Source: Lysinibacillus sp. B2A1 (lineage in GTDB: Bacteria > Bacillota > Bacilli > Bacillales_A > Planococcaceae). From it: 64,000 bases of DNA. Location of the stretch: contig CP027224.1 in NCBI GenBank assembly GCA_002973635.1, positions 4,102,501-4,166,500 of the forward strand. Direction: 5' to 3'. Under the pieces are notes generated by a model, which made no database searches, had not been told where the DNA came from, and worked only from the letters and a program-made list of their open reading frames with translations. Every line of letters starts with the position of its first letter. Position 1 is the first letter of the stretch. Made by a program: the position numbers and the translations under genes. This document shows positions 27,554-47,204 of this stretch, in pieces.

Positions 27554-28090
27554 CTAATCTGTAAACACATCCAGTTCCTTCTTCAAATTTTTACGCACTC
27601 GCATAAGTTTAAAAATTGGTCCCACTAATAACATAACAATAAGAATATTAGTACTATTCAGTAGTAATTTCAGCAAATCTGTATGCTGTCCTTTGAAAAT
27701 ACTAATAAGCCCTGTTAAACCAACAAACAAATTCAGTAGGAGAATCAATAACAACAGCGTAATTTTTTTGGACAAATTACTGATTTTAGTTTTTTTATCA
27801 GAATAAAGTTCAAAGGGTCCTTCATGAGCAGGCTTTCTAAAGAAAACAAAGTTTCCAGAACGGTCTACTTGTTCTATTCCAGATGATTTGAGAAAGTCTA
27901 GGTACTCATCTTCATAGGAAGTACCAAATCGCTCCAATTCATCATGGCGATAAATATAGCTACCTGGTTCATCTTGCTCAAATGTAAAACGAATCCAAGT
28001 AAATTTTTTCAAATGCCATCCTTGACTAGCCATCTCATTAACTCTTTTTTCAATAACATACGGATTCATCACTAACCAATACTTATGCAA
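27554..28090 (-). CDS. DUF2812 membrane protein, copy 1
   Basis: About 178 residues with the same design as the next gene: VNEMASQGWHLKKFTWIRF, GSYIYRHDE and EGPFELYSDK, then two membrane helices. The start is probably TTG 28090, 9 nt after GGAGG; ATG 28099 touches that site directly. It overlaps the end of padR by 8 nt, so translation is coupled. DUF2812 proteins might act as membrane partners or anti-regulators of PadR (inference from frequent linkage). Confidence 0.75.
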   Translation of the reverse strand: MHKYWLVMNPYVIEKRVNEMASQGWHLKKFTWIRFTFEQDEPGSYIYRHDELERFGTSYEDEYLDFLKSSGIEQVDRSGNFVFFRKPAHEGPFELYSDKKTKISNLSKKITLLLLILLLNLFVGLTGLISIFKGQHTDLLKLLLNSTNILIVMLLVGPIFKLMRVRKNLKKELDVFTD

Positions 28091-28406
28091 AGTTCCCATC
28101 CTCCTTCGTTATACGGATACCATTGTCAAAAAGTTCCCTTAATCTTAAAATTTCATAGTGCACAACTTCTTTTCCACTCTCAGTTATTACATATTCCTTT
28201 TTTCGTCCATCATCTTCTAGTGCTTCAATCCATCCTCGTTCCAATAAGGTTTTTATCGCACCATAAATCGTTCCAGCTCCAAGCCGCACACGACCATTGC
28301 TCATTTCTTCTACCAATTGCATAATCCCATAACCATGCCTTGCGTCAAATAAAGCTAATAAAATATAATAAACGCCTTCTGTTAATGGCGGATGCTCTTG
28401 TGTCAT
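28083..28406 (-). CDS. PadR-family transcriptional regulator
   Basis: About 107 residues. Winged helix typical of PadR proteins: TEGVYYILLALFDARHGYGIMQ, VRLGAGTIYGAIKTLLERGWIE, DGRKKEYVITESGKE, then a C-terminal dimer helix. ATG 28406 follows a GGGGGGA. It heads a five-gene minus-strand operon with two DUF2812 genes and an ABC exporter, and very likely represses this operon at the TATATC-N7-GATATA sites over its own promoter. Inducer unknown; PadR/YhaQP-type units often respond to drugs or envelope stress. Confidence 0.9.
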   Translation of the reverse strand: MTQEHPPLTEGVYYILLALFDARHGYGIMQLVEEMSNGRVRLGAGTIYGAIKTLLERGWIEALEDDGRKKEYVITESGKEVVHYEILRLRELFDNGIRITKEDGNFA

Positions 28407-28418
28407 ACAAATCCCCCC

Positions 28419-28485
28419 TATATCGCACAACAATATATCGACCTACGATATAATAAAATATATCAGCAGACGATATAGTTGTCAA
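28419..28485 (-). promoter_or_regulatory. padR operon promoter with three operator sites
   Basis: Minus strand: TTGACA (28480-28485), 17-bp spacer, TATATT (28457-28462). Two perfect TATATC-N7-GATATA dyads lie at 28459-28477 (spacer and -10) and 28434-28452 (around the start), centres 25 bp apart, with a third copy having one mismatch at 28419-28437. Such placement fits PadR autorepression. Confidence 0.75.
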
Positions 28486-28604
28486 TGTTATTTCATTCAT
28501 TTAAAAAGCAGTTATTAAGATCGTGTGGAAGCCTGGTTCAGCTTCATAGTATAGATTATTTAAGTTAATTTGAGCGTTTCTTCTGACTTAAGGTAGATTT
28601 TGAG

Positions 28605-29165
28605 TCTACCTGCGCATTATTTCCTGTTAGCTAAGCGGTTCTGTTGTTAACCGATCTTTTTTTGGTTCTATTTGAGCGATTTTCTTCGGCCCTGAACACT
28701 TTTTGGTTCTATCTGAGCGGTTCTCTTCGGCACCCGAGCACTTTCCAGTTCTACCTGAGCGATTCTTACTGGCACCCGAGCACTTTCCAGTTCTACCTGA
28801 GCGATTCTCGCCATCACCCGAGCATTTTTTGGTTCTATCTGAGCGATTCTCTTCGGCAACCGAGCACTTTCCAGTTCTACCTGAGCGATTCTTACTGTCA
28901 ACCGAGCACTTTCCGGTTCTGCCTGAGCGGTTATCTTCGGCACCCGAGCATTTTCCGGCTCTACCTGAGCGGTTCTCCCATCACCCGAGCATTTTCCGGT
29001 TCTACCTGAGCGGTTCTCCCATCACCCGAGCATTTTCCGGTTCTACCTGAGCGGTTCTCCCATCACCCGAGCATTTTCCGGCTCTACCTGAGCGGTTCTC
29101 CCATCACCCGAGCATTTTCCGGTTCTACCTGAGCATTTCTCCCATCACCCGAGCATTTTTATTTC
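28605..29165. repeat. Array 1: 26 cores of a 20/21-bp unit (GAGCG/GAGCA)
   Basis: The core GAGC(G/A), or a near form, recurs at 28633, 28653, 28674, 28694, 28715 and then every 21 bp to 28967, after which steps alternate 20 and 21 bp to 29151. Units alternate between a TACCTGAGCG type and a CACCCGAGCA type, so the higher period is 42 bp, later 41 bp. Frames are open on both strands only because 21 is a multiple of three; the 20-bp units break them and no ribosome binding site is present. The array fills the space between the divergent padR and tetR promoters. Confidence 0.93.
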
Positions 29166-29173
29166 TATTTTTA

Positions 29174-29221
29174 TTGCATACAAAATTACACTATGCTAGC
29201 ATGTAAGTAATCACTTGCATG
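29174..29221 (+). promoter_or_regulatory. Promoter and operator of the TetR-permease pair
   Basis: TTGCAT (29174-29179), 17-bp spacer, TAGCAT (29197-29202). The near-palindrome CATGTAAGT-AATC-ACTTGCATG (29200-29221) covers the -10 and start region and resembles the perfect palindrome at 29841-29856. Confidence 0.6.
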
Positions 29222-29236
29222 AAAGGAAGTAATTTT

Positions 29237-29818
29237 TTGTCAACAAAAGGGACTGCTGATCGAATTATTGAAGCTGCATTACATCTTGTCAGTGAAAAAG
29301 GTTATACCGCAGCAACAACAAAAGCTATAGCTGAATTAGCTGAGGTTAATGAGGTAACCATTTTTCGCCATTTTGGTAGCAAGCAGGGCATTTTAAAAGC
29401 CATCATTGAAAAGTTTTCCTACTATCCTCTGATGCAGCAGGAGCTTACTACAAATGTGACATGGGATTTAGAAAGTGATTTATTGAATTTTTCCCTAAAG
29501 CACTTTAATTTTTTAATTTCCATTAAAGACTTTGTCATGATTGGCTTTAAGGAAGGGATGCAATTTCCTGAAATTAATGAAGAAATTGCGAATATCCCGC
29601 TCCTTATTAAAAATGAGCTTGTTCATTATTTAAAGGAGATGCATCAAAGAGAAAAGATTAGAGAAATCAATTTTGAAGCAGCTGCACTATCATTAATCGC
29701 TATGAATTTTGGACATTTTATGTCACGTGCACGCTTAGGAACAATTGTTTCAGAGATGCCAACGGAAGAATTGCTACAGACAAGTATTTCTATTTTTTCT
29801 AGGGGACTCGTTTCCTAG
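29237..29818 (+). CDS. TetR-family regulator
   Basis: About 193 residues. N-terminal helix-turn-helix: ADRIIEAALHLVSEKGYTAATT, KAIAELAEVNEVTIFRHFGSKQGIL. The rest is a helical ligand domain. TTG 29237 is chosen because AAGGAAG lies 7 nt upstream; ATG 29219 overlaps that site. The permease gene follows 54 nt later with a palindrome in between, so this protein probably represses itself and the permease. Ligand unknown. Confidence 0.87.
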   Translation: MSTKGTADRIIEAALHLVSEKGYTAATTKAIAELAEVNEVTIFRHFGSKQGILKAIIEKFSYYPLMQQELTTNVTWDLESDLLNFSLKHFNFLISIKDFVMIGFKEGMQFPEINEEIANIPLLIKNELVHYLKEMHQREKIREINFEAAALSLIAMNFGHFMSRARLGTIVSEMPTEELLQTSISIFSRGLVS

Positions 29819-44153: not shown

Positions 44154-45404
44154 ATGACTAGTGAAGTTCAATTAAAAGGAAAACTGGCAAAAGCCGCAAG
44201 CTATGTGTTAAATATTAAAACTACTTGTGAAAAAAACGGTGCTCTTACAAAAATTGCAGAACAATTAATTGTGGATCAGGACACTATTATCGCTGAAAAT
44301 GCAAAGGATTTAGCTCATGGTGAGGAACAAGGAATGCCTGCATCTACACTGGACCGTATTATGCTTAACAAGGAACGTATAGAAGCAATGGCAAATGCCA
44401 TCCATCTACTCGTAGAATTAGATGATCCAGTAGGTAATTTACTAGAAAGAATAGAAAAGGATAATGGGCTGCTAATTGAAAAACGTATGGTGCCGATTGG
44501 CGTTATTGGAATGATTTACGAAGCCCGTCCTAATGTAACTGTTGATGCGGCAACATTATCTTTGAAAACTGGCAATGCTGTAATATTACGTGGAAGCTCT
44601 TCAGCTAAATTCTCAAATGTTGCAATAGTGACAAGTATTCATCGTGCTCTTGAAAAAACATCAATTCCTGTTGATGCGGTACAATTGATTGAGGATACAA
44701 ATCGAGAAACGGCAAAAGAATTATTCCATCTAAAAGAATACTTAGATGTCTTGATTCCTCGTGGTGGAAAGGCACTCATTGATTTAGTAGTAAGAGAGGC
44801 CACTGTACCTGTCCTTGAAACAGGTGCTGGTAATTGTCATATTTATGTAGATCAAACAGCCGATTACATAAAAGCGGAAAAAATTTGTTTGAATGCAAAA
44901 ATACAGCGACCATCCGTATGTAATGCAGCAGAAAGCTTACTTATTCATCCAGATTGGTTTAAGGAATATGGGCCACAACTCCTAAGCGCTTTGCATGAGG
45001 CAGGTGTCACAATTATCGGCGATGAATTCGTTTGTCAAGCGCTAGATTTCGCTCTTCCAGCATCGGAAGAGGATTATGCAACTGAATATTTAGATTTGAA
45101 GATAAGTGTAAAACTGGTAGAAAATGTGTACGAGGCAATTGAGCACATTAATAAATATGGTACTAATCACTCTGAAGCAATCATTACAGAGGATCAAATA
45201 GTGGCAGATACGTTCTTAAATAGCGTTGACGCGGCAGCTGTCTATCACAATGCCTCTACTCGTTTCACAGACGGCTTTGAGTTCGGCTACGGCGCTGAAA
45301 TCGGAATTAGTACACAAAAATTACACGCGCGAGGCCCTATGGGGTTACCAGCCCTTACCTCTACAAAATATTTCATTCACGGTAATGGACAAATCCGCGA
45401 ATAA
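44154..45404 (+). CDS. proA: Glutamate-5-semialdehyde dehydrogenase
   Basis: 416 residues of the aldehyde dehydrogenase fold. Marks: [24 protein letters not shown] near 115, [29 protein letters not shown] near 220, and the catalytic Cys in [11 protein letters not shown] near 255. It reduces glutamyl-5-phosphate to the semialdehyde, second step of proline synthesis. Follows proB in the T-box operon, and a terminator lies 15 nt past the stop. Confidence 0.95.
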
Positions 45405-45418
45405 AGGTAGAACTTAAT

Positions 45419-45457
45419 GGAAAGCCAGCAGTTGAGATACGTTGTTGGCTTTCTTTA
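45419..45457 (+). terminator. Terminator after proBA
   Basis: 10-bp arms (45421-45430 and 45443-45452, one G-T pair) with a T-rich tail. Confidence 0.85.
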
Positions 45458-45489
45458 TATTTACGATTCATACTGCTAACTGTGTGAAG

Positions 45490-46210
45490 TCTTTCCCCTT
45501 AGCCGAGCAATATGTATTACTACCTAAGCGAAGTTTTTCCTTAGCTAAGGGTCTTGCACTGGTACATGAGTGGAGTCTTCTCTTGGCCGAGCGATTCTCT
45601 TTGCTACCTGAGCGAAGTCTTCTCTTAGCTGAGCGATTTGTGCTAATACCTGAGCGGATTCTCTCCTTGGCTGAGCGATTTGTGCTAATACCTGAGCGGA
45701 TTCTCTCCTTGGCCGAGCGATTCTCTTTGTTACCTGAGCGAAGTCTTCACTTGGCTGAGCGGTTCGCACTGGTACATGAGCAGATCCTCTCCTTGGCCGA
45801 GCGATTCTCTTTGCTACCTGAGCGAAGTCTTCACTTGGCTGAGCGGTTCGCACTGGTACATGAGCGGATTTTCCCCTTGGCCGAGCAATTCTCTTCGTTA
45901 CCTGAGCGAAGTCTTCACTTGGCTGAGCGGTTCGCACTGGTACATGAGCGGATTTTCCCCTTGGCCGAGCAATTCTCTTCGTTACCTGAGCGAAGTCTTC
46001 ACTTGGCTGAGCGGTTCGCACTGGTACATGAGCGGATTTTCCCCTTGGCTGAGCGATTCTCTCTGCTACTTGAGCGAAATCTTCTCTTGGCTGAGCGGTT
46101 CGCACTTGTACATGAGCGGATTTTCCTCTTGGCTGAGCGATTCTCTTTGCTACCTGAGCGAAGTCTTCACTTTGCTGAGCGATTCATTCTGGTTCCTAAG
46201 CATCGACTTT
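45490..46210. repeat. Array 2: 34 perfectly phased 21-bp units (GAGCG core)
   Basis: The core GAGC(G/A), or a near form such as AAGC, recurs every 21 bp from 45505 to 46198 (33 steps of exactly 21 bp) with no insertion or deletion seen. Four unit types follow in order (ACATGAGCG, GGCCGAGCA, ACCTGAGCG, GGCTGAGCG) and form an 84-bp higher-order repeat; the ACATGAG type stands at 45778, 45862, 45946, 46030 and 46114. Long frames cross it on both strands, but the plus frame begins inside the proBA terminator and none has a ribosome binding site. The array fills the gap between proBA and the EamA gene. Confidence 0.95.
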
Positions 46211-46295
46211 CAAATGAAGTAAAAAAATGTAATCCTGCCCATCTTCATCAAAAGTTAACAACATCATTTATAAAAATTTAGAAAGAAGGTTATGT

Positions 46296-47204
46296 ATGAA
46301 CATTTCTGCGATAATAAAATTAACTGTTTCAATGGCACTCTTTGGCTCAATCGGATTTTTTACTGTTCATACTGGCGTGCCTGCGACCGAGCTAGTATTT
46401 ATCAGATGTATTTGCGCTACCCTCTTTCTAGGAGGACTATGGCTCATCACTGGTGGACATAAAACAGAGGTATGGGATAAAAATGAAATAGTACGAACAC
46501 TTATTTGTGGCGTCTTTATCGTCTTAAATTGGGTATTTTTGTTTAAGGCCTTTGAGGAAATGTCGATTTCCATTGTGATTTCTATCTATAATTTAGCACC
46601 CATTTTTGTTTTAATTTTTGGCGCATTATTTTTAAAAGAAAAAATGACAATCCAGGCACTCCTTGCAACAATCACTTGTTTTATAGGAAGCATGTTTATT
46701 ATCGGCTTAAATAATTTTTTGTCACTCTCTGAGTTTATGAAATCAGGCTTTATTTGGGCATTACTGTCTGCTGTATTTTACTCGTTTACAATGCTAACAA
46801 GTAAAACGATTACAAAGCTTAGTTCCTATGCATTAACCTATATTCAAACAACAGTTGGAATTATCATTCTCCTACCATTTATAGATTTTTCACTATTTGA
46901 AGGATTAACGTCAACCAATTGGCTATATATTTTAGGGACAGGCTTTATTCACACAGGCTTTGTTTACTATTTATTCTTTGATAGCATTCGTAGTCTCTCT
47001 ACAATTCTAGTTTCTGTTTTAGTATTTGTAGACCCAGTAGTGGCCATCTTGCTCGATATGTTGTTGCTTGATTTTATGCCAAGCCTTATGCAAACAATGG
47101 GGATATTATTGATTTTCGGGGGTATTTTTTATACCATCTATGTACCAAAGAAAAACGTGTGTCTCATACTTCGACTTAAACCAAATAGAGGAGGTTTTTC
47201 ATGA
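46296..47204 (+). CDS. EamA/DMT-family transporter
   Basis: 302 residues, ten predicted helices in two EamA halves: SMALFGSIGFFTVHTGVPATELVFIR, GALFLKEKMTIQALLATI near 110, then LSAVFYSFTMLTSK and DPVVAILLDMLLLDFMPSLMQ in the second half. Substrate unknown; nucleosides, amino acids or sugars are possible. Its stop overlaps the start of the sugar kinase gene (ATGA), so they form one coupled unit, which hints that the substrate might be a sugar or nucleoside (inference). GAAGG precedes ATG 46296, and array 2 ends about 85 bp upstream. Confidence 0.88.
   Translation: MNISAIIKLTVSMALFGSIGFFTVHTGVPATELVFIRCICATLFLGGLWLITGGHKTEVWDKNEIVRTLICGVFIVLNWVFLFKAFEEMSISIVISIYNLAPIFVLIFGALFLKEKMTIQALLATITCFIGSMFIIGLNNFLSLSEFMKSGFIWALLSAVFYSFTMLTSKTITKLSSYALTYIQTTVGIIILLPFIDFSLFEGLTSTNWLYILGTGFIHTGFVYYLFFDSIRSLSTILVSVLVFVDPVVAILLDMLLLDFMPSLMQTMGILLIFGGIFYTIYVPKKNVCLILRLKPNRGGFS

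Follow-up and report, generated by a model that had tools for sequence, protein, structure and literature searches.

The 64-kb window analyzed here (64,000 nucleotides of Lysinibacillus sp. B2A1, genome G000 in our set) harbors a long array of short direct repeats built on the core GAGCR, denoted array 1, in the gap between proA and a gene encoding an EamA-type transporter; a second array separates two regulator genes (Table 1). Read at 45505 + 21k (k = 0–33), array 1 presents 34 core positions, 30 of which are perfect GAGCR; those at 45526, 45568, and 46198 carry one GAGC mismatch each, and that at 45547 carries two. None of the 33 steps between 45505 and 46198 changes in length, and 29 perfect cores (45589–46177) form an unbroken 21-bp chain, whereas among 20 order-1 resampled 64-kb windows the longest chain was a single core in 19 and two cores in the other. 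Self-identity is highest at a lag of 84 bp (0.83), followed by 42 bp (0.70) and 21 bp (0.46), and 71 to 81 of 84 positions agree between the block at 45778 and each of the 84-bp blocks at 45694, 45862, 45946, 46030, and 46114. The original prediction, a 34-unit array with an exact 21-bp phase in which four unit types alternate to give an 84-bp super-repeat, is borne out on both counts; its limits, 45490 and 46210, are better moved outward to those of Table 1. Array 1 also looks noncoding, as originally proposed: a frame open across it begins within the terminator-like hairpin and has no Pfam match over the cut-off, and no homologous protein was found at E 1e-5.

Table 1. Features of the window and array-borne insertion element (IS) copies in the genome
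Feature	Position	Strand	Remarks
PadR-family regulator	28083..28433	-	left of array 2
Array 2	28591..29205	+	23 GAGCR cores, mostly 21- and 20-bp steps (28674–29155), degenerate flanks; between divergent regulators
TetR-family regulator	29219..29818	+	right of array 2
proA, aldehyde-dehydrogenase family	44154..45404	+	left neighbor of array 1; gene name inferred (gamma-glutamyl phosphate reductase)
Terminator-like hairpin	45419..45454	+	after proA, just upstream of array 1; consensus match only
Open frame across array 1	45442..46281	+	279 aa, TTG start; judged spurious
Array 1	~45486..46218	+	34 positions, 21-bp phase; + strand of linkers is rich in pyrimidines
84-bp higher-order repeat	~45694..46197		within array 1
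EamA-type transporter	46296..47204	+	right neighbor of array 1
Array-borne IS copies (L299, L301–L305)	G000 1.39, 2.28, 2.46, 2.75, 3.79, and 4.59 Mb		1385 bp; one copy 1384 bp

The start of the EamA gene follows proA in all 30 genomes of the genus fetched for comparison (as read by eye), and the gap holds 30 cores in Lysinibacillus sp. B2A1, 28, 6, 6, 3, 3, 3, 2, 2, and 1 in nine others, and none in the remaining 20. Sister species conserve the core in this gap with altered linkers, and G005 retains ACCYGAGCG. These counts, together with the G005 core, indicate that arrays expand, shrink, and are missing in many species, with core and phase persisting wherever an array is present.

Arrays across the genome and the family

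Searching beyond the window for the 21-bp unit, a check that accompanied the original prediction, reveals that array 1 is not alone. The pattern of three GAGCR at 21 bp matches the genome of Lysinibacillus sp. B2A1 380 times (246 forward and 134 reverse), compared with none for the reversed control. Within the 864 kb of this genome examined (28 stretches picked for pattern matches, 12 spread 20-kb stretches, and the 64-kb window), we find 32 merged arrays of at least four cores, a few of which are pieces of a single array divided by an insertion element; none falls in any of the 12 spread stretches. All but one of the 32 lie outside called genes, the call having omitted ORFs lying largely inside arrays, and the remaining array reaches into the 5′ part of a long ORF with a mechanically assigned start. 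The strict phase of array 1 is not shared by every array of the genome, as others include 20-bp steps: of 451 core-to-core steps of 15 to 27 bp, 392 are of 21 bp, 46 of 20, three of 19, one of 22, and nine of other lengths. The averaged unit of 30 pyrimidine-type arrays or pieces is ACCYGAGCRRTTTT, in which GAGCR is the selection criterion, followed by a free pyrimidine-rich stretch; the ACCY flanks are likewise common to these 30, and the linkers vary from array to array. Five purine-type pieces have CCYGAGCR in common, again with GAGCR as the selection criterion.

An IS3-like element with seven copies of an identical transposase (rve domain) in this genome, and nine weaker matches to relatives, marks the same core. 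Six of the seven copies reside within arrays and the seventh outside any array. In all six, in either orientation of the element, the 4-bp target starts directly 3′ of GAGCR, with a perfect 4-bp duplication in five and one off by a single base in the sixth; the chance of an equal phase five further times is (1/21)^5. As judged from these insertion sites, this shows that something in the cell, either the transposase itself or a core-bound protein, distinguishes the position 3′ of GAGCR.

Among relatives, the three-GAGCR pattern is matched in 40 of 61 genomes (Lysinibacillus sp. B2A1 plus 60 others), and a four-unit GAGCR match is found in 82 of 200 genomes of the family, representing 12 of 19 genera. 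The word varies by species at a constant 21-bp step. Lysinibacillus sp. B2A1 uses CCYGAGCR; other words are TTKGAGCGG (G018 and G002), ATWGAGCG followed by S/W bases (G033, of another genus), CCGCGGAGCA (array word in G019 and G023), and CCGCGAGTATT; the last or a word close to it is the one in the reversed-control matches listed for G011 and part of G031, and this control matches 71 to 91 times in G011, G024, and G031. CCGCGGAGCA was also noted for G016, and G019, G023, and G016 are species nearly devoid of the focal word. Counts of repeated 6-mers at the loci retrieved put the leading lag at 42 bp for five genomes and at 21 bp for G031. The relatives' loci were chosen by GAGCR or RCGAG at 21 bp, so other words and periods are missed and the dominance of 21 bp there is partly built in. 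Ten of 31 other genomes of the genus have only zero to four exact three-unit matches (G021 and G026 none; G011 and G031 use the reversed-control word), and many of the few matches left in array-poor genomes look coding by eye. Array number thus varies widely within the genus, which indicates that arrays are dispensable. Clades with different words have few array sites in common, and our comparison of cross-clade orthologous sites found very few shared flanking genes, roughly the chance level by a rough estimate.

Across named genomes generally, there are at least 118 four-GAGCR-unit stretches; most of the 80 listed, which come from high-GC or distant organisms, are presumably chance coding matches, and three of the 118, from Oceanobacillus arenosus, Sporosarcina P32b, and Sporosarcina P34, were read as arrays. 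Viral contigs contain 21 stretches with the pattern, and one of six inspected, from a metagenomic contig labeled viral (L345), looks array-like, with a run of CCYGAGCA units at 21 bp.

Core conservation, phase, and replication polarity

The original prediction read the strict phase of array 1 as either a selected protein-binding platform or a very recent amplification. Between units 42 bp apart, GAGC mismatches amount to 1 to 6%, against 12 to 56% at most linker positions (G000, G001, G018, G002, and G033); the comparison conditions on one intact core, which by itself would halve the core figure, but relative to most linker positions the core rate is much less than half. Arrays of G031, the linkers of which differ by up to 16%, are too uniform for this contrast. 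Substitutions were not spread evenly over the unit, as they would be in a simple VNTR minisatellite, in any of the five genomes. Furthermore, 85 of 105 units with linkers resembling no other in their array still stand at exactly 21 bp, and of all 1705 steps of 15 to 27 bp, 1567 are of 21 bp, 88 of 20, 12 of 22, 12 of 19, and 26 of other lengths. The arrays are thus direct repeats at a helical multiple with a conserved core, as in iteron-like arrays. Because substitutions are far rarer in the core than in the linkers, the 21-bp spacing is kept among unrelated linkers, and the proA–EamA gap of sister species retains the core, selection is favored over mere recent amplification; the local 42- and 84-bp higher-order copies reveal that amplification occurs as well. 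Random unit lengths and the lack of a conserved core in related strains, which would have spoken against the original prediction, are not what we find, since many relatives conserve the core at 21 bp. The prediction captured the array itself and missed its membership in a genome- and family-wide class, the species-specific words, and the replication polarity.

Outside arrays, the longer core words are found at about expectation on the two strands (CCTGAGC, 23 and 35 vs. 26 and 35 expected; CCCGAGC, 4 and 9 vs. 8 and 10); only ACCTGAGC (26 vs. ~17) and ACCCGAGC (8 vs. ~5) are slightly more frequent than expected. It is therefore the arrayed form that seems to matter.

Array orientation in G000 flips between 3.37 and 3.67 Mb, and the GC skew of the stretches flips at 3.36 to 3.50 Mb. 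We took the G-rich strand of the flanks as leading and its complement as lagging. Among 97 arrays from five genomes of the genus, the linkers are pyrimidine-rich on the lagging strand in 91, and the core lies on that strand in 85. Five of the six polarity exceptions are nearly balanced (0.50–0.57 pyrimidine) and one is clear at 0.72 (L255 in G002). The leading-strand purine fraction of other non-ORF DNA is only 0.520 (88 kb). Neighboring genes do not explain array polarity: agreement with replication is 55/57 where genes run with the fork, 24/27 where they are convergent, and 5/6 where they are divergent, and all seven arrays between genes read against the fork follow replication; these seven correspond to five independent cases (two orthologous pairs), and in one of the five the linkers are nearly balanced and a neighboring gene belongs to an IS. 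The G033-type genus retains core and phase with no clear linker polarity (9/15), and polarity may therefore belong to the genus of Lysinibacillus sp. B2A1 and core and phase to a wider group.

In G000, G001, and G002, no listed array lies within ~0.3 to 0.7 Mb of the presumed origin in either direction, an observation that is suggestive only. The gap in G000 extends over 0 to 0.58 and 4.81 to 5.51 Mb, with similar gaps in the other two, and covers 0.21 to 0.23 of each genome (post hoc p 0.0003–0.006). Array spread along the replichores of G000, G001, and G002 does not differ from uniform by the KS test (p 0.32, 0.67, and 0.40, respectively). We do not rely on this gap, given the KS result, its post hoc definition, the rough placement of origin and terminus, and the many arrays that G000 and G001 share.

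The array core was also considered as a Chi site and is disfavored, as CCTGAGC and CCCGAGC outside arrays show neither enrichment nor a leading-strand bias; counts of GAGCG and GAGCA deviate by no more than ~10% from expectation per strand, though 0.61 to 0.65 are leading. The strongest leading-strand word of 14 counted is GAAGCGG, found there 76 times vs. 25 expected (about threefold) and 70% leading in the sampled stretches of G000. GAAGCGG, the Chi sequence of S. aureus, is likely the Chi site of Lysinibacillus sp. B2A1.

Interpretation and relation to known systems

On balance, we favor the reading that array 1 is probably one of about 30 chromosomal platforms for a putative, coevolving trans-acting DNA-binding factor. 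It draws on core conservation, the 21/20-bp phase, recurrence, species-specific words, replication polarity, and IS insertion at the core, all seen in the sequence; a bound protein, its cooperativity, and a benefit to the cell are what we infer from them. Each platform would offer many copies of a short core word, one every two helical turns, and this spacing would allow copies of the putative factor to bind next to one another along the same helical face, presumably with cooperativity. The recognized word would shift between species, presumably along with the factor; within the genus, the arrays are mostly oriented one way relative to the replication fork. A bolder version, which we put forward only tentatively, is an undescribed chromosome-organization or fork-control system of Bacillales, in which a fast-evolving DNA-binding protein might coat phased arrays at ~30 sites, nearly all of them oriented alike with respect to replication, and thereby provide a fork or DNA translocase with a polar landing pad or barrier. 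In this version, protein and arrays would coevolve genome-wide, since each species has its own word, as do eukaryotic satellite DNA and its binding proteins.

The main rival of the platform reading is recombination drive, in which the core serves as a hotspot or break motif particular to each species and arrays with good cores expand and homogenize by molecular drive with no benefit to the cell. The local 42- and 84-bp higher-order repeats and the lineage-specific unit sets at the same site point to expansion and homogenization, and the patchy presence of arrays fits as well; on the other hand, Chi, the hotspot word known best, seems here to be GAAGCGG rather than the array core, and drive alone does not easily explain why units whose linkers are unrelated keep an exact 21-bp phase. 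We consider this reading unlikely. To our knowledge, species-specific recombinogenic minisatellites of replication-fixed orientation are not known in bacteria, and such elements would thus be new even if the drive reading were true.

We hold it improbable that the arrays function at the RNA level, as transcripts whose core is bound in RNA, e.g., a Rho-type or 3′-end processing platform. Their position outside called genes, that of array 1 after a terminator-like hairpin, and the strong pyrimidine bias of one linker strand in the genus are what such an element predicts, but polarity tracks replication and not the neighboring genes, and the skew is absent from the G033-type genus. A structured RNA family is likewise disfavored, as the 64-kb window has no Rfam match and the fold of a 300-nt array piece is nothing unusual (z = −1.37 and +1.86 on the two strands).

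A fork trap of the known RTP–Ter or Tus–Ter type would accommodate the coincident flips of array orientation and GC skew, but is very doubtful, since arrays are found along both replichores and not only near the terminus and RTP (PF02334) is absent from six of six genus genomes tested, which speaks against RTP–Ter termination in these; a fork barrier involving a new protein may exist. An RTP-family protein scores over the cut-off in three of four tested genomes of another genus, g3 (G033, G142, and G176). Even less probable are neutral slippage repeats with a core free of selection, which agree with the local higher-order copies but not with the core–linker difference, the ACCY flank common to ~30 arrays, or an exact phase without copying. 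Finally, a repeat protein gene (21 bp = seven codons) is scarcely credible: of 87 arrays that measure 300 bp or more, 48 have some frame open over >90% of their length, and three frames are nearly stop-free in the five arrays of G031, an exception, but no core-relative frame is stop-free across arrays in the other five of six genomes, 46 of 92 arrays contain frame-breaking steps, and the search at E 1e-5 found no homologous protein.

If the arrays are binding platforms, they would represent a large, patchy, and fast-evolving noncoding system unremarked in a common bacterial family and a natural species series in which DNA word and reader may have changed together. Owing to their polarity relative to replication, a part in fork progression, chromosome folding, or strand-specific repair can be tested directly. 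Our PubMed Central searches, which cover neither subscription papers nor preprints, turned up no account of such arrays among the papers listed.

Plasmid iterons and other direct-repeat binding arrays resemble the arrays described here in that their direct repeats span about two helical turns and combine a conserved core with a freer spacer. In contrast to iterons, the arrays are chromosomal, occupy ~30 sites of up to ~30 units each, use species-specific words, and have a replication-tied orientation; no replication initiator gene lies beside the two window arrays. Chi and KOPS/SRS are single words found throughout genes with a leading-strand bias, and they resemble the arrays in their replichore-tied direction, whereas the array word is conserved in arrays outside genes with the core mostly on the lagging strand. 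REP/BIME, HIP1, and TAACTGA repeats are numerous and intergenic, as are the arrays. REPs are hairpins and HIP1 is a lone palindrome, and some dispersed intergenic repeats of this class are targets of insertion elements; we know of none that combines a species-specific core, a fixed 21-bp phase, and replication polarity. TAACTGA direct repeats consist of one heptamer and, in the main genome of that study, are reported to lie for the most part immediately upstream of putative start codons (PMC4679880). VNTR minisatellites share with the arrays tandem units, copy-number change, and higher-order copies; what distinguishes the arrays is a core and a phase that stay conserved from locus to locus and where linkers are unrelated.
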